IMG/VR virus record: IMGVR_UViG_3300024261_002505
Coordinates: 1-27,349 of that record
Strand: one strand, 5' to 3'
DNA: 27,349 nucleotides
From: a virus
Positions 2,816 through 10,885 of the stretch are shown here, piece after piece. The notes under the pieces are model-generated. The model made no database searches, was not told the origin of the DNA, and was given only the letters and a program-made list of their open reading frames with translations. Made by a program: the position numbers and the translations under genes. Every line of letters starts with the position of its first letter. Positions within the stretch are counted from its first letter, which is position 1.

Positions 2816-3289
2816 ATGAAAAATCAAAATTACAATATTGGACAAATTTTATTTATTTTATCACAAAAATATAACAAAGTCATACCAGTAAAAGTAACAG
2901 AACATATTATATCAAAAACTGCTGAAGGTGAAAAATCAAAATATATTGTAACACCATATTTTAATAAAAATAAAAAATATAATCTTGATCAATTATCAGG
3001 CACAGTTATGTTTAATACGCAAGACGTCTACAACTATATGTTAAATAACGCGTCTAGTGCAATAAAAGGGATTATCGAAGAATCTGTAGAGAATGCAAAA
3101 TTACTAGGATATAATAATGATATAGAGTTATTAGATAAAAGTTCTGCAGACAGTGAGCCCGAAAGTGAAAGCAAAAAACAACCGGAAGAAAAAGAGCTTC
3201 CTGAATTAAATACGGATGCAAATCCTGAAAGTGTTTCTGAAACAATAACGCTTCCTGACGGAACTGTTGCAAAAGTTAATATAAAATAA
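2816..3289 (+). CDS. Hypothetical protein with acidic C-terminal tail (157 aa)
   Basis: The N-terminal ~100 residues (starting MKNQNYNIGQILFILSQKYN) look like a compact domain. They are followed by a Ser/Glu/Pro-rich, probably disordered linker (residues ~108-140) and a short beta-type tail (TITLPDGTVAKVNIK). No family was recognised; the layout of a small domain, acidic linker and terminal peptide would suit an adaptor or virion accessory protein, which is speculation. Its end overlaps the convergent protease gene by 14 bases. Confidence 0.65.
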   Translation: MKNQNYNIGQILFILSQKYNKVIPVKVTEHIISKTAEGEKSKYIVTPYFNKNKKYNLDQLSGTVMFNTQDVYNYMLNNASSAIKGIIEESVENAKLLGYNNDIELLDKSSADSEPESESKKQPEEKELPELNTDANPESVSETITLPDGTVAKVNIK

Positions 3290-4031
3290 ATTTTGTTTGT
3301 TTTAAGAAATTCATTATTTCATCACGATGAACAAAAAAAGGCGTATTACTTTCTATTACAAGAAAGGATGAAATACCTAGTAAATTTCCGTATTCATCAA
3401 ATACTCCGCCTCCTGAATTTCCTTTATATATTTTTGCGTCTAACTGTATAAGTTTTATGCTACGCATTGAGAAGAAAGGCCTTATCGTTCTTATTGCTGC
3501 TACGAAACCATGAGAATATGAATAAGATAATCCTGATGTGTGTCCTATAACATGAACTTTATTTCCTTGTCTTATTGATGTATTATATAGACTAGCATTA
3601 TAATGAAAAGGTATATTATCTTGCACTTCTAGTAATGCAAGATCCGAATTAATATCGATATCAGCAACTTTTGCGACCTTTGGGTTTACAAATTGTATTT
3701 TTAATGAACCTGCAGAATACGCATCAAGAGCTGTTGCATAGTTTATATCAATTTTTCCTTCAGATATTGCATGTTCAACACAGTGATATGCGGTCAAGAA
3801 ATATCGTTTTGCTATCCAAACTCCAGAACAATATGGCATGTAATATTCGTTAACTTCATCTTTTTTTAATAATGCAACTGTTACATAATTGAAATAATTT
3901 AGATTTTTTTTATAATTGTAAGCTTTATGTTCTTTTCCTGATAGCATAGGAGATAATACAACAATAAGTGGTAAAGCTAGTAAAAGTATGGTGTACGAAA
4001 GCAACGATTTTATATTAATATTTTTATTCAT
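3276..4031 (-). CDS. Membrane-anchored trypsin/HtrA-like serine protease
   Basis: This 251-residue protein is a chymotrypsin-fold serine endopeptidase with a complete triad: His83 in the TAYHC box, Asp130 in INSDLALLEV and Ser206 in GNSGGG. An N-terminal hydrophobic segment (about residues 10-28) after a Lys/Asn start is a signal anchor, so the catalytic domain should face the periplasm or cell exterior. I chose the ATG at 4031 over the ATG eight codons upstream because the TTATAAT promoter motif lies inside that upstream stretch. There is no PDZ domain, unlike DegP, and the length fits a single protease domain. It is divergent from groEL, sharing ~60 bases. Possible roles are envelope protein processing, lysis or release, or superinfection control; none is shown by the sequence. 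Confidence 0.8.
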   Translation of the reverse strand: MNKNINIKSLLSYTILLLALPLIVVLSPMLSGKEHKAYNYKKNLNYFNYVTVALLKKDEVNEYYMPYCSGVWIAKRYFLTAYHCVEHAISEGKIDINYATALDAYSAGSLKIQFVNPKVAKVADIDINSDLALLEVQDNIPFHYNASLYNTSIRQGNKVHVIGHTSGLSYSYSHGFVAAIRTIRPFFSMRSIKLIQLDAKIYKGNSGGGVFDEYGNLLGISSFLVIESNTPFFVHRDEIMNFLKQTKFILY

Positions 4032-4091: not shown

Positions 4092-5681
4092 ATGGAAAAC
4101 AGTGATTTATCAGATAGTGTTATTTTTAATGATGAAGCAAGAACAAAGATATTTAATGGAATAAAAATTGTGTACGATGCCGTATCGTCAACATTAGGCC
4201 CTAAGGGTAAAAACGTTATAATTGAAAAACCTGGTTCATTACCTCTTATTACAAAAGACGGTGTTACAGTAGCAAAAAGTATTAAATTAAAAAACAAGCC
4301 AATGTCTCTTGGCGCAGAATTAATAAAAGAGGCTGCAAATCAAACAAACGAAGAAGCTGGTGATGGTACAACAACCGCTACTGTATTAACATATTCTATG
4401 TGCTTCGAAGCACTTAAATTATTATCGGTTGGGTATTCTCCAACATCACTAAAAAAAGGCATGGAAAGTTCCTTAGAGCATGTCAATAATATGCTAAGAA
4501 AGCAATCAATTGAAATAAACGATAAATCAGGAATGAAAAATGTTGCAACAATATCTGCAAATGGCGATGAAAACATTGGCTCGCTCATTGCTGACGCTGT
4601 CTCAAAAGTAGGAAAAAATGGAGTCGTAACAATAGAAGAAGCAAAAGGTTTAGCTACATCACTTAATATAATAGACGGACTTCAAATAGACAGGGGATAT
4701 TTGTCATCATATTTTGTAACACATGAAAACAAAATGTTATGTGAACTTGAAGATCCTTATGTTCTTGTTACAGATCAAAAAATTGAATCATTAAACGATG
4801 TTATAGGTATCCTAGAACAGATTCATAAAACAGGAAAATCATTATTAATCATAGCCGATGATATTAATGGTGATGCACTTCAAGGATTAGTTCTAAATAA
4901 GCTCAAGGCATCATTAAAAATATGCGCAATAAAAGCACCTTCATATGGTGAAAACAGAAAAGAGATATTAAAAGATATTGCGTCACTAGCAGGGACAGAC
5001 GCAATATTAAGAGAAACCGGCATTTCTTTGCAGAAATTAGGAATAAACGATCTTGGAAGATGCAAAAAAGTTATATCACATAAGTATTCAACAGTTCTTA
5101 TAGGAAAAGAATCAACAGGTGCAGTAAAAAGTAGAATATCACAAATTGAAGAGTATTTAGAAAACGTTTCATTATCTAGACAAGAAATAGATCATGCAAA
5201 AATGAGGCTAGCAAATCTTGCTAATGGTGCAGCAATTATAAAAGTAGGAGGTTCAACTGAATTAGAAATGCTTGAGCGTAAAGATCGAATAGAGGATGCA
5301 CTTAACGCAACAAAAGCAGCTGTTGACGAAGGCATTGTTCCAGGCTGTGGGTTAACATTGTATATGATAGGAAAAAGCCTTGAAAGCGTAAAAATTAATG
5401 ATGATTTAAAGCCTGGTATGCAAATTGTTATAAACGCATGTAAACAACCTTTTACAAAGATTATGACAAACTCTGGTAATTCGCCTGATGTCATAATTGA
5501 TACTATTTTACGAGAAGACGTAACAGGATATAACGTTAACACAGGAGAATATTGTAATATGATTAAACAAGGAATAATTGATCCTGTAAAAGTAACAAAA
5601 TGTGCATTTAAAAACGCGTTGTCAGTTGCTTCAATGTTTACGATGCTTGAATGCGCCGTGTTTGATAATACAAATGAATAA
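4092..5681 (+). CDS. groEL: Phage-encoded GroEL chaperonin (Cpn60)
   Basis: A 529-residue group I chaperonin aligning over its full length with bacterial GroEL (~548). Equatorial ATP-site signatures are intact: TLGPKGKN (34-41), KDGVTVAK with the Asp52 equivalent (Asp56), GDGTTTATVL with the Asp87 equivalent (Asp91), and the catalytic Asp398 equivalent in IEDALNATKAAVDEG (about 402). The intermediate and apical domains follow in normal order, including APSYGENRKE. The Gly-rich loop reads PGCG where GroEL has GGG, and the C-terminus lacks the GGM repeat tail. It presumably forms an ATP-driven folding ring, perhaps for the capsid protein. No GroES/gp31-type co-chaperonin is in the window, so host GroES or a phage gene elsewhere must serve. 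AAGGA upstream supports the start. An unknown gene and a degenerate paralogue follow. Confidence 0.93.
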   Translation: MENSDLSDSVIFNDEARTKIFNGIKIVYDAVSSTLGPKGKNVIIEKPGSLPLITKDGVTVAKSIKLKNKPMSLGAELIKEAANQTNEEAGDGTTTATVLTYSMCFEALKLLSVGYSPTSLKKGMESSLEHVNNMLRKQSIEINDKSGMKNVATISANGDENIGSLIADAVSKVGKNGVVTIEEAKGLATSLNIIDGLQIDRGYLSSYFVTHENKMLCELEDPYVLVTDQKIESLNDVIGILEQIHKTGKSLLIIADDINGDALQGLVLNKLKASLKICAIKAPSYGENRKEILKDIASLAGTDAILRETGISLQKLGINDLGRCKKVISHKYSTVLIGKESTGAVKSRISQIEEYLENVSLSRQEIDHAKMRLANLANGAAIIKVGGSTELEMLERKDRIEDALNATKAAVDEGIVPGCGLTLYMIGKSLESVKINDDLKPGMQIVINACKQPFTKIMTNSGNSPDVIIDTILREDVTGYNVNTGEYCNMIKQGIIDPVKVTKCAFKNALSVASMFTMLECAVFDNTNE

Positions 5682-6300
5682 AGACGAAAAAAACAATAAT
5701 TTTAAATATCTTGATTATATCATTAACGCCCGTTATTCTGAAATAACTGAATATATAAGAAAACAACGAAAAAAGAAAACACCTCTTGATCCTGAAACAG
5801 ATGAAGAATTTCAAAAAAGAATGAGTTTTGATTATAGGGTTGGTGATTATGCATGGTACATACCGGAAAAAATAAGGAACGTTCACCCATTTATAGCCGT
5901 TAAATGCATAATTATTGATATACATAATGCTGATGGTAATTTTGAATATACTGTTGATGAACCTATACAACATACAATACCACAAGAAAAATTATATTAT
6001 GATTCAGTGCCATGTTTTGCAGAGCTTCAGCGTATTTTTTACAAAGAAATGTCTGAGTATGCAATGAAAGAAATTAAATCTTATAATCTAGATTATGAAA
6101 AATCATTAAACGATCCTATTGAAGAAATAAAAGAAGAACATTTTATATATGAGTATAATGACATAAAAACATGGCGTTATTATGCTAATAATCAAAAAGA
6201 ACCAAATAAAAACATTTTAACAGTCAAAAAAGAAAGATTGGCTGATTGGTACACAATTTGTGATTTTTTTGACTTTGACTTAGTTTATCCTGATAGCTAA
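5674..6300 (+). CDS. Unknown protein between two chaperonin genes (208 aa)
   Basis: The start at 5674 (MNKDEKNNN) is used because it overlaps the end of groEL by only eight bases (ATGAATAA), a typical coupled arrangement; a longer in-frame start inside groEL is less likely. The protein is rich in charged and aromatic residues. A segment at about 50-110 (YRVGDYAWYIPEKI, then DGNFEYTVDEP and IPQEKLYYD) looks like a small beta-barrel or SH3-like fold, followed by a helical, acidic C-terminal half. There is no Cys pattern, transmembrane segment or known motif. Its position suggests co-expression with GroEL, but no GroES mobile-loop pattern is visible. Confidence 0.7.
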   Translation: MNKDEKNNNFKYLDYIINARYSEITEYIRKQRKKKTPLDPETDEEFQKRMSFDYRVGDYAWYIPEKIRNVHPFIAVKCIIIDIHNADGNFEYTVDEPIQHTIPQEKLYYDSVPCFAELQRIFYKEMSEYAMKEIKSYNLDYEKSLNDPIEEIKEEHFIYEYNDIKTWRYYANNQKEPNKNILTVKKERLADWYTICDFFDFDLVYPDS

Positions 6301-6305
6301 AATTG

Positions 6306-6316
6306 TTTTATAATTT
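6306..6316 (+). promoter_or_regulatory. TTATAAT promoter motif for the degenerate GroEL gene
   Basis: GTTTTATAATTTATTATG: TATAAT at 6309-6314 with only five bases before the ATG at 6320. Transcription from it would give an essentially leaderless message. The second chaperonin-like gene may thus be expressed separately from groEL. Confidence 0.45.
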
Positions 6317-6319
6317 ATT

Positions 6320-7669
6320 ATGCATTCTATTGTTAAAAATAAAAAAGATTATCAAAAAGAATTACACGAAATGCTTGAAGAGCTTGGCAGATTTGTAAAT
6401 TCAAAAGAATATACGATAAAAACAAAAAACAATGGAACACTTCATACAGAAAACATTGTTCATCTATTATCTTTTTTAAAAACCGATACACAACTTAAAA
6501 GTATTATACGTGATGTTATAATAGAGACGTGTAAATCAACTACTAAAGTAGGTGGTGATGACAAGCTTGTATTAAATTTTATGTTTACATATATGAATGA
6601 ATTGTTCAAACACAATTTACTATCTCAAAAAAAGATAAAACACATTGACGTAGAAAAATTAAAGCAAACAATCAATTCATGCAGAACATATCCACAGTTT
6701 TCTGAACTCAAAAAAGAAGTTTATAAACAATCGCAAAGAAGCGTTGCAGATATTGTAATTGAGTCATATAAGCTTGCAGGATTAACAGGAAAAATATTTA
6801 TTGATAAAAAGAACATTCCTGAACCTCAAATTGAATTAATTTCAGGAAATATTTTTAATTTACATGTTAATAATCAATTTTTAAATGGAGTAACATGGGA
6901 AAACAAAAATATAAAATGCTTAATCGTAGAAGGTATTATTGAAGGCGTTCATGAAATACACAGAATACTTGAAGAAATAAATAAAACAAAGCAACCTTTG
7001 ATTATATTTGCAACAGGCTTTAGTGATGATGTTCTGTCAACGTTGTACACAAACAAAGTGAGAGGAACTTTAGATGTTGTACCTGTGCGGATTATGTCAA
7101 GCATGGAAAACATAAATACACTTAAAGATTTATCTATTGTTTGCAAATCTGAATTAATATCTTCATTAAAAGGACAGACACTAACTAGCTTTACTGCTGA
7201 TGATCTTTCAACAGTAGATAGAATTATATGTTCACAAAAAACAATAATAATTCAAAATAACAACGAACAAGAAATTCATGCACATTTAAAATATTTATTA
7301 GACAAAAAAAATGAATCAAATATTAATGACGTTAAAGATTTATTAGATAAACGTATCAAATCAATGACATCAAATTATGTGCAAATATCGATTCCAGACA
7401 ATATCAAATATAAAGAAGATGAAGCATTTGAAAAAATCAATAACTGCATACATATGCTAAAAACGTTGATATCTAGGGGATTTGTTAATATGCAAGATGT
7501 CTTTAATTATAATTCAAAAGGATTATTTAATGATTGTCTTTTAAAGACATTTAAATCACTTAATGTTGACGTTGTTTCAACAAATACGTTGTTGGCAATA
7601 TTAAATTATGGTATCGTTAATGCAGAGCTACTTGTATCAGTTAATGCTGCTGTTGTATCAGATAATTAA
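6320..7669 (+). CDS. Degenerate GroEL-like paralogue lacking ATPase residues
   Basis: This 449-residue protein is a divergent chaperonin by comparison with the GroEL two genes upstream. Its middle (about 197-312: LIVEGIIEGVHEIHRILEEI, KQPLIIFATGFSDDVL, LYTNKVRGTLDVVPVRI) follows the apical domain step by step. DKRIKSMTSNYVQI (343-356) matches AKMRLANLANGAAI, and NYNSKGLFNDCLL to the end (396-449) matches the GYNVNTGEYCNMI C-terminal equatorial part. The ATP site is lost: TLGPKGKN became LGRFVNSKE, GDGTTTA became GDDKLVL, and catalytic IEDAL became FEKIN (371-375). About 50 residues covering the PGGG loop are deleted. It probably cannot hydrolyse ATP. A mixed ring subunit, a substrate-holding receptor or a GroEL regulator are all possible; which is unknown. 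The homology call is by eye. Confidence 0.75.
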   Translation: MHSIVKNKKDYQKELHEMLEELGRFVNSKEYTIKTKNNGTLHTENIVHLLSFLKTDTQLKSIIRDVIIETCKSTTKVGGDDKLVLNFMFTYMNELFKHNLLSQKKIKHIDVEKLKQTINSCRTYPQFSELKKEVYKQSQRSVADIVIESYKLAGLTGKIFIDKKNIPEPQIELISGNIFNLHVNNQFLNGVTWENKNIKCLIVEGIIEGVHEIHRILEEINKTKQPLIIFATGFSDDVLSTLYTNKVRGTLDVVPVRIMSSMENINTLKDLSIVCKSELISSLKGQTLTSFTADDLSTVDRIICSQKTIIIQNNNEQEIHAHLKYLLDKKNESNINDVKDLLDKRIKSMTSNYVQISIPDNIKYKEDEAFEKINNCIHMLKTLISRGFVNMQDVFNYNSKGLFNDCLLKTFKSLNVDVVSTNTLLAILNYGIVNAELLVSVNAAVVSDN

Positions 7670-8880
7670 AGAATTCTATTAAATACTCTATCCATATGCT
7701 TGTATGTAATTTTTTGTATTGTTTTTAAGCTGATTTCAAATCTGCCTTTTGATTCAGATGTTTGTTTTTGTATTGACTGTACAACTTCTTGACTAATTAC
7801 ATTAACTAGTTTCTCAAATGTGCCTTCAGGAACCGAGCTTTCGTTGCCTTCATCATCCAAAAGGCCTTTATTCAATATATAATCCTCAATTGCATCTTGT
7901 ACTGTTTTTGACATTGTTTCAGCACTAGAATCAATTGCTTTATTTATTCTTCTTTTTATATTCGGCAAATGTACTCCGTCTGGGCCGAACTCTTTTTGAA
8001 TAAGTGGATGACTTTTTGTCCAAGTATTTAAAGCTTGTGAAATTGCTGATTTTAGTGGCAGATCAAGATCGCTTATTTTTTCCAGCTCATCAGTTGGATC
8101 TGCTTCGTTTTCTGTTGGCGTAGATAATTTTTCACCTGATTCTTCAGACCCTTCAGATTCTTCTTCTGATGATGTTATGACGGCCGAATCAGGATCATCT
8201 TGCGCATTTTTTAATGCATCAACATCATCTGAATCAATAGGCGGGCGACTATCAACAGATGGTGAATTTGCAATATTCATTAATTGTTCAAAAGATTGAC
8301 TTTGAAGTTCATTAACAAAATCATCCATTTTGTCATCCATAAATGGCACTTTAGATGCTCTCCCAGACCATGTAAATTTGTTTGGGACAACAAAGTTTGA
8401 TTTAACCATTTTTACAAACTTATCACTCTGCTCCTTTGGCCATTGTGCACGGCCGGCGCTACCTTGCTCAAATGCATCTTTTAAAGGTATTTTTTTAAAA
8501 TCGTCGGTAATATCAAATGATTTCCATAATGTATCAAGCATATTTGGAAAGTTCTGAAAAAACGCAAATACAGACGCAATAAACGAACTTACATCAGACA
8601 TATCATCAACCCAGAGATCAGTTATTTTTTTATCTTTTGAAGCAGTTAATTGGCTATCTACTAGAACGTCATAAGCATCATTTATTGCGTTTTCTATTGA
8701 ACTGAGGTTAAAATTTCTTGAAGCATTACGAAAACTGTCCAGCCATCTCTCTAAACCTTTTATCTCATCTATAGTCCAGCTTTCAAGTATAACTTGATCT
8801 AATTCTTGAGTTTCTATTTTTAACTTGTTAACTTTTTCAACTAGCTTGTTTTTCTTATAATTATTTTGTAATGTATCCAT
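7666..8880 (-). CDS. Hypothetical acidic protein (404 aa)
   Basis: No family recognised. The N-terminal ~120 residues are helical with coiled-coil character. A central region is Ser/Asp/Glu-rich and surely disordered (about residues 215-265, including SSEEESEGSEESGEK), and the C-terminal ~130 residues are again helical and mildly basic (IKRRINKAIDSSAE). Two helical domains joined by an acidic linker resemble scaffold or virion accessory proteins, but this is only a resemblance. It is convergent with the degenerate GroEL gene, their stop codons overlapping over 7666-7669, and divergent from the gene at 8979. No close TTATAAT was found before its start. Confidence 0.65.
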   Translation of the reverse strand: MDTLQNNYKKNKLVEKVNKLKIETQELDQVILESWTIDEIKGLERWLDSFRNASRNFNLSSIENAINDAYDVLVDSQLTASKDKKITDLWVDDMSDVSSFIASVFAFFQNFPNMLDTLWKSFDITDDFKKIPLKDAFEQGSAGRAQWPKEQSDKFVKMVKSNFVVPNKFTWSGRASKVPFMDDKMDDFVNELQSQSFEQLMNIANSPSVDSRPPIDSDDVDALKNAQDDPDSAVITSSEEESEGSEESGEKLSTPTENEADPTDELEKISDLDLPLKSAISQALNTWTKSHPLIQKEFGPDGVHLPNIKRRINKAIDSSAETMSKTVQDAIEDYILNKGLLDDEGNESSVPEGTFEKLVNVISQEVVQSIQKQTSESKGRFEISLKTIQKITYKHMDRVFNRIL

Positions 8881-8978: not shown

Positions 8979-9305
8979 ATGGCAACAAAAAATGATATCA
9001 ATAGACTATTTGCAGAGGTTTTAGAATACGTAAAAACTTCAACAACACAAAACGTATTATCTGCAATTCAAAATAATTCACAACAATCAAACCTATTAAG
9101 TGCCGTAGAAAAGGCTGTTAATACATCTGTAACAACTGCATATAATAATACTGCAGCTAGAGTACAAAGGTCACTGAATGAACTTGAACAAGCTGTTGCA
9201 GAGCAAACGACGGCAAAGGTAACAATGCAATTAAAAACACAAGCTTCTGCGCAAAAAAAAACAAGCAGTCGCGGTGGGCGACGTTCTTCAGCAAATAAAA
9301 CCTGA
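8979..9305 (+). CDS. Small protein with basic C-terminal tail (108 aa)
   Basis: The first ~85 residues are helical with Gln/Asn/Ala/Thr richness (VLEYVKTSTTQNVLSAIQNN). The last ~18 are strongly basic and Ser/Gly-rich (QKKTSSRGGRRSSANKT), like a nucleic-acid-binding tail. A histone-like or DNA-binding role is possible but not demonstrated; no named family was recognised. AGGAAA upstream supports the ATG. It heads a plus-strand cluster that runs to 10885 and includes ClpP. Confidence 0.65.
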   Translation: MATKNDINRLFAEVLEYVKTSTTQNVLSAIQNNSQQSNLLSAVEKAVNTSVTTAYNNTAARVQRSLNELEQAVAEQTTAKVTMQLKTQASAQKKTSSRGGRRSSANKT

Positions 9306-9307
9306 TT

Positions 9308-9766
9308 ATGCAAGGAATTAAACATTTAATTCAATGTAAATGTATATTGCCTCAGTTTAAAACACAACAGATATTTCATAAATTTGTTGTGTTTTCTATT
9401 ATAGACGATGACAAAGTTGAAAAAAAATTAGTTCAATGTAATAATTGTGCTGCAGTGCATAAAGTAACTGAAATATGTAAATCAGAAATAATCAATAAAA
9501 AAGATAATCTCCGCGGAGTTATGTCAATTGATGATTATAAAATTAATTTACCTAATAATATATCTTCATTGCTAGAAAGTCTCAATTGTCAATTGCATGT
9601 CTGGGAAGAAATCAATTTTGTAATAAAACACAAAAAATGGGGATCAAAAATAATAATAACGCATGAAGCGTATGATGATTATACGTGTGGAAAATACATT
9701 ATAATTAATTCAAAAAATGATTTTGAAATCGAAACATTTGATGAAGAAAACGTTATAACTGATTAA
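9308..9766 (+). CDS. Cys-containing hypothetical protein (152 aa)
   Basis: It starts two bases after the previous stop. The N-terminal half contains C-x-C (residues 10-12), then CNNC and a further Cys (CNNCAAVHKVTEIC), spaced so that a small zinc-binding ribbon is plausible. The C-terminal half (SLNCQLHVWEEINFVIKHKKWG onward) looks alpha/beta. I do not recognise the family. It could be a transcription or nucleic-acid-associated factor if zinc is bound, but that rests only on the Cys pattern. Confidence 0.65.
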   Translation: MQGIKHLIQCKCILPQFKTQQIFHKFVVFSIIDDDKVEKKLVQCNNCAAVHKVTEICKSEIINKKDNLRGVMSIDDYKINLPNNISSLLESLNCQLHVWEEINFVIKHKKWGSKIIITHEAYDDYTCGKYIIINSKNDFEIETFDEENVITD

Positions 9767-9804: not shown

Positions 9805-10050
9805 ATGGCAAACTACGGAAAAACAGAAACAGAGCTTTTAGTAGAAGAAACATTACAATGCCGACAAATAATAAAAGAAATAACAAAATTTGGTGTTTCG
9901 CAAAAACAAATATTAAAAATAATAGAATTGTTATCTCTAGAATTAGAAAACATTGAACACACCAGAGAAATATGTGGTTTAATAAAAGAATTAAATAATC
10001 TCAGCGTTATTGACGATGAAACAACCCAAGAAGGTCTTAAATTAGTATAA
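9805..10050 (+). CDS. Small helical protein overlapping clpP (81 aa)
   Basis: An all-helical, Glu/Leu/Ile-rich protein (ETELLVEETLQCRQIIKEIT; ILKIIELLSLELENIEH) of unknown function. Its last base is shared with the clpP start (TATAATG), so the two are translationally coupled. Upstream, TATTATAGAC lies ~10 bases before the ATG and may be a variant of the TTATAAT motif. A partner or regulator of the downstream ClpP is a guess from coupling only. Confidence 0.65.
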   Translation: MANYGKTETELLVEETLQCRQIIKEITKFGVSQKQILKIIELLSLELENIEHTREICGLIKELNNLSVIDDETTQEGLKLV

Positions 10051-10640
10051 TGGGACGTAATACATTAACAACCGAAGAGAAGACACAAGAGTTAATTGAA
10101 AATGCTCAGCAGCAATATGTTGAATACTCCGCATTAAAAGAAAGAATTGTATTGCTAACCGGCGAGGTTAATGAATTATCAATTGCAAATGTAACACATC
10201 AACTGTTTGCACATTGTCAGGCATGTAATACAACACCAATAACTCTTATTATTAATACCTACGGCGGTTCTGTTGATGAAATGTTTGCTTTATATGACAC
10301 AATTAAGTATATAAACTGTCCGATACACACAGTTGGATTAGGAAAAATAATGTCTGCAGGCGTTTTATTATTAGCTGCTGGCAAAAAAGGTAAAAGAATA
10401 ATTGGAAAACATGCTAGAGTTATGTTACATCCTATATCGACTTTTACATCTGGTACAATATTTGCTGCAATCAATGAAATAGAAGAAGTTAAGCGAATGC
10501 AAGAGCTGATGATATCAAGCCTGGTGCTTGAATCAAAAATGAAAAAAACAGAACTTACAAAACTATTCAAGCAAAATATGGATATCTATATTAATGCAAA
10601 AAAAGCTATTGAGTATGGAATTGCAGATTTAATCGCATAG
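10050..10640 (+). CDS. clpP: ClpP-like serine protease (S14 family)
   Basis: This 196-residue protein has the ClpP fold and a full catalytic triad: Ser102 in GKIMSAGVLLLAAG, His127 in VMLHPIS and Asp178 in MDIYINAKKAIEYG. The oxyanion-region YGGSVDE (71-77) is present. Length matches mature ClpP (~195) with no long propeptide. ClpP normally degrades proteins fed by ClpX or ClpA, and no such ATPase is in the window, so it may use a host unfoldase. Another possibility is use as a capsid-maturation protease, since S14 enzymes serve as prohead proteases in some phages, though T4-like phages normally use gp21. It is coupled to the upstream 81-aa gene and followed eight bases later by a small helical gene. 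Confidence 0.9.
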   Translation: MGRNTLTTEEKTQELIENAQQQYVEYSALKERIVLLTGEVNELSIANVTHQLFAHCQACNTTPITLIINTYGGSVDEMFALYDTIKYINCPIHTVGLGKIMSAGVLLLAAGKKGKRIIGKHARVMLHPISTFTSGTIFAAINEIEEVKRMQELMISSLVLESKMKKTELTKLFKQNMDIYINAKKAIEYGIADLIA

Positions 10641-10648
10641 GTAATATT

Positions 10649-10885
10649 ATGGATACAAATGAACAAATAGCAAAACTTAAAACACAAATTGTCGAATCTT
10701 GGAAAGAGCTTGAAATTTTACGTGAAAGCCTTGAACTTGATCTTGCAAAATCATTAAGCGGTATTAAAACTGCAGGCGTAAGAACAAGAAAAGGGCTCAA
10801 ACTTATGAGTCAACAATCACAAACAATAAAAAAACAGCTTCTGCAAATACAGAAGCTGTTTAATGAACTTAAGAAAAAAGATTAA
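10649..10885 (+). CDS. Small coiled-coil protein (78 aa)
   Basis: A Lys/Glu/Leu-rich, continuous-helix protein with heptad-like spacing (IAKLKTQIVESWKELEILRE; IKKQLLQIQKLFNELKKKD) and a basic middle (TRKGLKLM). Function unknown. Its 3' end encodes the QLLQIQKLF region on top of a perfect 12-bp inverted repeat that looks like a terminator for the opposite strand. The coding end overlaps the convergent dUTPase-like gene by four bases. Confidence 0.6.
   Translation: MDTNEQIAKLKTQIVESWKELEILRESLELDLAKSLSGIKTAGVRTRKGLKLMSQQSQTIKKQLLQIQKLFNELKKKD
10832..10861 (-). terminator. Rho-independent terminator of the long minus-strand operon
   Basis: A perfect 12-bp stem (AAACAGCTTCTG / CAGAAGCTGTTT) with a six-base loop. 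On the minus strand it is followed by a T-run (GCTGTTTTTTTATTG), the standard intrinsic-terminator layout. On the plus strand the following sequence is TAATGAAC, without a T-run. It lies ~20 bases beyond the last minus-strand stop (10882), inside the 3' end of the opposing gene. Confidence 0.7.

Follow-up and report, generated by a model that had tools for sequence, protein, structure and literature searches.

The window analysed in this work, a fragment of 27,349 bases from a tailed phage (IMG/VR record IMGVR_UViG_3300024261_002505), encodes an intact chaperonin of the GroEL type, P1, and downstream of it a GroEL-like protein, P2, that has lost its nucleotide site. By comparison of sequences we show that P2 belongs to a conserved family of pseudo-chaperonins in a lineage of uncultured, large tailed phages. 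To the reading that we favour we give an even chance: P2 is, as we infer, an exapted apical binding module that would act on a specific phage partner as a holdase or adaptor, independently of ATP. Three genes, given here with the length of their products in amino acids (aa), are central to the analysis.

4092-5681 (+): P1, phage GroEL of 529 aa with ATPase motifs present; 602.6 bits against TIGR02348 (cut-off 582.1), within the GroEL clade of the lineage
5674-6300 (+): 208-aa open reading frame (ORF) between P1 and P2, overlapping the stop of P1
6320-7669 (+): P2, dead GroEL-like protein of 449 aa, one of a conserved family of six members

The ORFs of P1 and P2 are both present where the initial annotation of this DNA had placed them, and P1 is the intact phage GroEL that it had described, scoring above the TIGR02348 cut-off. 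Its description of the two genes as a tandem is not strictly accurate, as the 208-aa ORF, for which no homologue was found, intervenes and overlaps the end of P1. The homology of P2 to GroEL is borne out by the profile search that had been proposed along with it, which yields Cpn60/GroEL matches such as NF009487 (E 9.3e-23) and the Plasmodium falciparum Cpn60 7k3z (E 2.8e-14), all matches being to group I chaperonins exclusively. P1 and P2 are 22% identical (E 3e-10), and in an hhalign comparison with the GroEL profile of the lineage, residues 6-390 of P2 are collinear with GroEL 10-417 (E 2.3e-12). This collinearity spans the N-terminal equatorial, the intermediate and the apical domains, and the profile of the dead family aligns with GroEL at E 2.4e-21. 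P2 lies under the curated cut-offs for GroEL, with 68.5 of 582.1 for TIGR02348 and 22.9 of 34.3 for PF00118; judged by these cut-offs and by its motifs it is not a GroEL but represents a degenerate branch within the Cpn60 superfamily.

An open frame of 449 codons has a chance probability of about 3e-16 at this composition, codon log-odds favour the P2 frame, and its codon usage is that of the neighbouring genes. When P1 was made to drift neutrally in simulation until 22% identity remained, 200 runs gave a mean of 33.5 stop codons and a minimum of 18; P2 has none. Codon usage and the stop simulation therefore identify P2 as a coding gene under selection, as the initial annotation had supposed in preferring selection to decay. 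Broken copies in close relatives had been named as the sign of decay, and the five relatives that were found have open frames with the same losses.

Related contigs were gathered via their helicase and UvsX, and whole records were scanned with a GroEL profile that included P2; the dead relatives surfaced in no other search. Five related viral records of 204-298 kb, all metagenomic and possibly incomplete, carry a dead GroEL: G061 (409 aa), G060 (399 aa), G052 (458 aa), G055 (441 aa) and G062 (370 aa). Each of the five records of the lineage above 200 kb has the gene, and none was seen in the smaller, presumably incomplete ones. P2 matches the members L519, L522, L520, L521 and L523 with E-values from 7.6e-39 to 3e-28, whereas these reach at most 34 bits against P1; P2 scores 126.6 bits against L519, and the highest-scoring intact GroEL reaches about 65. 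Although the mutual identity of the six members is just 20-43%, they form a single clade in the tree, with a Shimodaira-Hasegawa-like approximate likelihood ratio test (SH-aLRT) support of 100, apart from all GroELs, the root among the latter not being fixed. The GroELs of the lineage form a group of their own that includes P1 (SH-aLRT 99), and P2 is therefore no recent duplicate of P1. As evidenced by path lengths of 8.0 between P2 and L520 and of 1.8 between P1 and L266, the dead family is diverging much faster than GroEL. Note that P2 placed alone in the tree sits on an end branch of 10 and that a clade of P1 and P2 is then not rejected (approximately unbiased test, p 0.87), a placement that is unusable.

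The losses in the nucleotide site were read from an alignment with GroELs of the lineage and of other viruses, and comprise the following positions.

6395-6405 (+): junction at which the six-residue nucleotide loop TLGPKG is deleted, the exact residue depending on the alignment; loop absent in 6 of 6 members
6452-6454 (+): Asn45, equivalent of the catalytic Asp52, with an uncertain alignment in other members
6554-6571 (+): GDDKLV, residues 79-84, in place of GDGTTT
7442-7444 (+): Asn375, equivalent of the catalytic Asp398; Asn, Tyr, Tyr, Ser, Thr and Glu across the family
7490-7498 (+): Met-Gln-Asp where GroEL has the GGG triplet, with most of the next equatorial segment deleted

The initial annotation had recognized most of these changes. 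Its replacement of GDGTTT by GDDKLV agrees with the alignment, and where it found approximately 50 residues missing around PGGG, we count 54, in the C-terminal half of the equatorial domain, in which GGG reads MQD. The loss of the P-loop stands as well, but TLGPKG is deleted rather than replaced by LGRFVNSKE; similarly, Asp398 is lost, but its counterpart is Asn375 and not the lysine of FEKIN, Lys372, which lies three residues upstream. TLGPKG, Gly88, Thr89, Thr90, Asp398 and GGG are absent from all six dead members, and an equivalent of Asp87 is retained in P2 only. Most of the equatorial C-terminus is gone from L519, L520 and L523, and its occupancy across the six members is 0.37; in the intermediate domain the conserved positions are nearly all lost. 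By its motifs, P2 is catalytically dead and its nucleotide site is lost.

The apical domain is the part that has been retained. Of the highly conserved GroEL columns, P2 retains 14 among the 25 in this domain and 12 among the 76 outside it (p 1.7e-4, Fisher test).

6842-7375 (+): apical domain, approximately residues 175-352, the best-conserved part; 15 of 17 family-invariant residues; in the AlphaFold2 (AF2) model a block with a predicted local distance difference test score (pLDDT) of 68-94, mostly above 80
6932-6973 (+): helix H, GIIEGVHEIHRILE, with the family signature G-x-x-E-x-V-x-E; the equivalent of Leu234 is His214
7031-7066 (+): helix I segment, VLSTLYTNKVRG, with invariant V, T, N and R; the equivalent of Val263 is Tyr243

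Across the family, helix I follows the pattern V-x-x-T-x-x-x-N-x-x-R. The position of Leu234 is polar in all six dead members (H/N/N/H/D/H) and that of Val263 is changed in most (Y/K/K/A/I/K), while the positions of Leu237 and Leu259 are mostly still hydrophobic. The apical strand RGYLSPYF, which holds GroEL Tyr199-Phe204 (Tyr199, Tyr203 and Phe204), is mostly lost in P2 and in the family. In GroEL, these groove residues bind the substrate (PMC3268035), and the substrate-binding residues overlap the GroES site (PMC3326522). Judged from these residues, the groove for GroES and substrate is remodelled in the dead family, and the hydrophobic groove that characterizes GroEL is not present. Structure prediction, which the initial annotation had suggested, returns a GroEL-like fold for P2, apical domain included, in a model steered by its alignment. 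With 28 GroELs as the alignment, AF2 gave a mean pLDDT of 80, with 87-94 over residues 191-260; the whole model matches Hsp60/GroEL with a VIA-align Z-score of 27.4 over 446 residues, and its apical part matches the apical domains of chloroplast Cpn60 with a root-mean-square deviation of 1.8-1.9 over 172-174 residues and a Z-score of 23.9 at 172.

The initial annotation had further taken P2 for a paralogue retained beside an active GroEL, a picture that does not extend to the relatives. The intact GroEL is located 145-186 kb from the dead gene in G052, G055, G060 and G062, and in G061 the dead GroEL was the only GroEL match found. Among the six genomes with a dead gene, the adjacency of P1 and P2 is found in the window alone, and because of the distances in the four relatives it looks like a local arrangement and not like a tandem duplication. 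It is the genes downstream of P2 that recur with the family.

8979-9305 (+): 108-aa ORF located where the relatives have genes for 73-87 aa, without demonstrated homology
9308-9766 (+): 152-aa cysteine-containing protein, downstream of the dead GroEL in 6 of 6 genomes
9805-10050 (+): 81-aa protein, downstream of the dead GroEL in 6 of 6 genomes
10050-10640 (+): ClpP-like protease (PF00574, E 2.5e-36), in the dead-GroEL cassette of 4 of 6 genomes
10649-10885 (+): 78-aa protein, in the dead-GroEL cassette of 4 of 6 genomes

The homologue of the cysteine-containing protein lies 0.2-1.1 kb 3' of the dead gene in the five relatives and 1.6 kb in the window, and the two families co-occur exactly, neither being found without the other in any record. 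In the cassettes of G052 and G055, genes for 236-238 aa without a Clp match occupy the position of the ClpP-like gene. Between P2 and the cassette, on the opposite strand, a 404-aa orphan (7666-8880, -) converges with P2 with an overlap of 4 bases; relatives of it were looked for and none were found. Immediately 5' of two of the dead GroELs (L521:3556-7992 and L522:3359-7813) we observed a cluster of DUF444 (YeaH), SpoVR and PrkA kinase genes.

In the reading that we favour, P2 and its family derive from a GroEL: they kept an apical domain with a remodelled groove but lost the nucleotide site together with a large part of the ring-forming equatorial domain. P2 would not fold proteins through an ATP cycle; instead, its apical domain would hold or present one specific phage-encoded partner, independently of ATP and without a GroES lid, and this partner may be encoded in its own cassette. 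The neighbouring P1 would be an independent gene. Of the three roles considered in the initial annotation, that of a substrate-specific receptor fits best, because constraint resides in the apical domain. A more specific form, in which the apical domain would be an ATP-independent adaptor presenting one captured protein to the viral ClpP-like protease or to an assembly machine, is tentative and rather unlikely; it would put the GroEL fold to a new use, away from folding in rings. Several points weigh against a pure binding module. The AF2 model is dictated in part by the GroEL alignment, and a model calculated without any alignment had a pLDDT of 38 and was useless. The steered model, moreover, keeps the N-strand (3-7), the stem hairpin (31-43) and the C-strand (443-447), which are inter-subunit elements in GroEL, and the ClpP-like gene is found at four, not six, of the dead-GroEL loci.

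The same three structural elements could speak for P2 as a non-catalytic subunit in rings of P1 or of the host GroEL, forming hetero-oligomers with an altered choice of substrate or an altered cycle. P2 is also encoded 3' of P1 in the same orientation, with a single, P1-overlapping gene between them, and hetero-oligomeric chaperonins with distinct subunits are described for chloroplasts (PMC5780408, PMC5636168). The wide separation of the two genes in four genomes and the lack of a second GroEL match in G061 speak against such an arrangement, as do the truncated equatorial C-termini of L519, L520 and L523 and the eroded intermediate domain. Because the equatorial C-terminus is lost family-wide, we consider mixed rings doubtful; P2 on its own might form them, but across the family there is little in their favour. 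A role of the P2 family as adaptors that deliver proteins, of the phage or of the host, to the cassette's ClpP-like protease would make use of the apical domain as a polypeptide-binding module and would account for a protease gene in the conserved cassette of four of the six genomes, but we regard it as quite unlikely, given that the cassettes of G052 and G055 have no ClpP match, that PHROGs ties such ClpP-like proteins to head maturation and that the usual partners of ClpP are AAA+ unfoldases.

A GroEL-like apical fold and a divergence much faster than that of GroEL, as seen in proteins that interact with the host, would also be expected of a decoy or inhibitor that redirects host folding by engaging GroEL, GroES or GroEL clients. 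The GroES-loop-binding residues have been substituted, however, and the apical core is strictly conserved and the cassette fixed despite the rapid change in sequence, which makes this role improbable. That P2 is merely a decaying duplicate of P1, as motif losses and deletions relative to GroEL might suggest, is hardly credible and already contradicted: the frame is open in six genomes at 20-43% identity where about 33 stops are expected neutrally, synteny and invariant residues are common to the family, and P2 is no recent copy of P1.

With GroEL/Cpn60 (TIGR02348, PF00118), P2 shares its collinearity over residues 6-390 and the apical fold, but it differs in the absence of TLGPKG, GDGTTT, Asp398, GGG and 54 residues of the equatorial C-terminus. 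A phage-encoded chaperonin fold is common to P2 and the phage GroELs of the EL gp146 and AR9 type (PHROG 5725), whose representative in the window is P1. The EL chaperonin is approximately 22% identical to GroEL and does not interact with GroES, but unlike P2, which lacks the ATP site, it is an active ATPase that forms rings (PMC7185714). Chlamydial GroEL2 and GroEL3 (NF038370, NF038369) are divergent additional GroELs beside a canonical one, with changes in the ATP and substrate sites (PMC1892554); they are bacterial and less degraded, with models of 506-533 positions, and P2, which scores 45.5 bits against the GroEL3 model NF038369 (cut-off 600), has lost far more. The vertebrate BBS6/MKKS, BBS10 and BBS12 resemble P2 as fast-evolving chaperonin relatives with degraded motifs for ATP hydrolysis (PMC2846930), but, compared by description, they are relatives of eukaryotic CCT and keep the ATP-binding Gly-Pro pair that is gone from P2. 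P2 can also be likened to the GroEL minichaperone (apical residues 191-376), which acts on aggregation without an ATPase (PMC4973282); minichaperones are engineered and have the native hydrophobic groove, whereas the P2 family has a remodelled groove and retains parts of the other domains. In its probable way of working, P2 would come closest to a minichaperone or to the BBS proteins. Degenerate chaperonin relatives are thus already known from Chlamydiae and vertebrates; a phage family of ATPase-dead GroELs was not found in the paper collection searched for viral, duplicated and degenerate chaperonins, an absence that is not proof. If the favoured reading is true, phages have turned a folding machine by exaptation into a protein that simply binds, which would provide a natural test of the GroEL features needed for binding versus cycling. 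The dead GroEL would furthermore tag a cassette of unknown genes that is conserved among large uncultured phages.

Other searches for relatives of P2 returned nothing comparable. With P2 or its apical part as a peptide-pattern query no relative was retrieved from IMG/VR, and a peptide-pattern scan of bacterial genomes gave no match; these scans were empty because the dead members are only 20-43% identical to each other. Searches of GenBank phages with tblastn yielded nothing but ordinary GroELs for P2 and no match for the 9308-9766 marker. No P2-like gene adjoins an intact GroEL at approximately 190 viral GroEL loci examined, a fruitless search because the dead gene is normally located elsewhere. 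A 406-aa ORF (L280:5007-6227) with a weak match to P2 was rejected as a relative, as it is a member of the 1386-2327 family. The related contigs contain at most one intact GroEL each (Pfam), and 50 further GroEL-bearing viral records yielded full-length ORFs only.

In the surroundings of the intact GroEL, a family of unannotated proteins is found upstream of the gene in most genomes of the lineage, often with an exonuclease-like gene in between.

2816-3289 in the window and 10787-11224 in L098: members of this family of 134-167 aa, also present in L273, L275, L276, L278 and L280-L282

A search for Cpn10 in 13 records of the lineage, window included, found no such gene, and the small genes directly upstream of the lineage GroELs, considered as candidates, are not Cpn10. 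Just before P1, on the opposite strand, lies a gene for a trypsin-like serine protease (3276-4022, -; PF13365, E 3e-18). Two other viral contigs, G116 and G129, contain two full-length ORFs of the GroEL type apiece, and at L003:5983-7601 and L365:1-1416 the GroEL gene is divided into two ORFs by a frameshift or an insertion. Near the dead GroEL of a 293-kb phage, finally, a gene at L521:12834-14006 shows a weak, sub-cut-off match to FtsZ/tubulin-like proteins (PF00091, E 3e-5).

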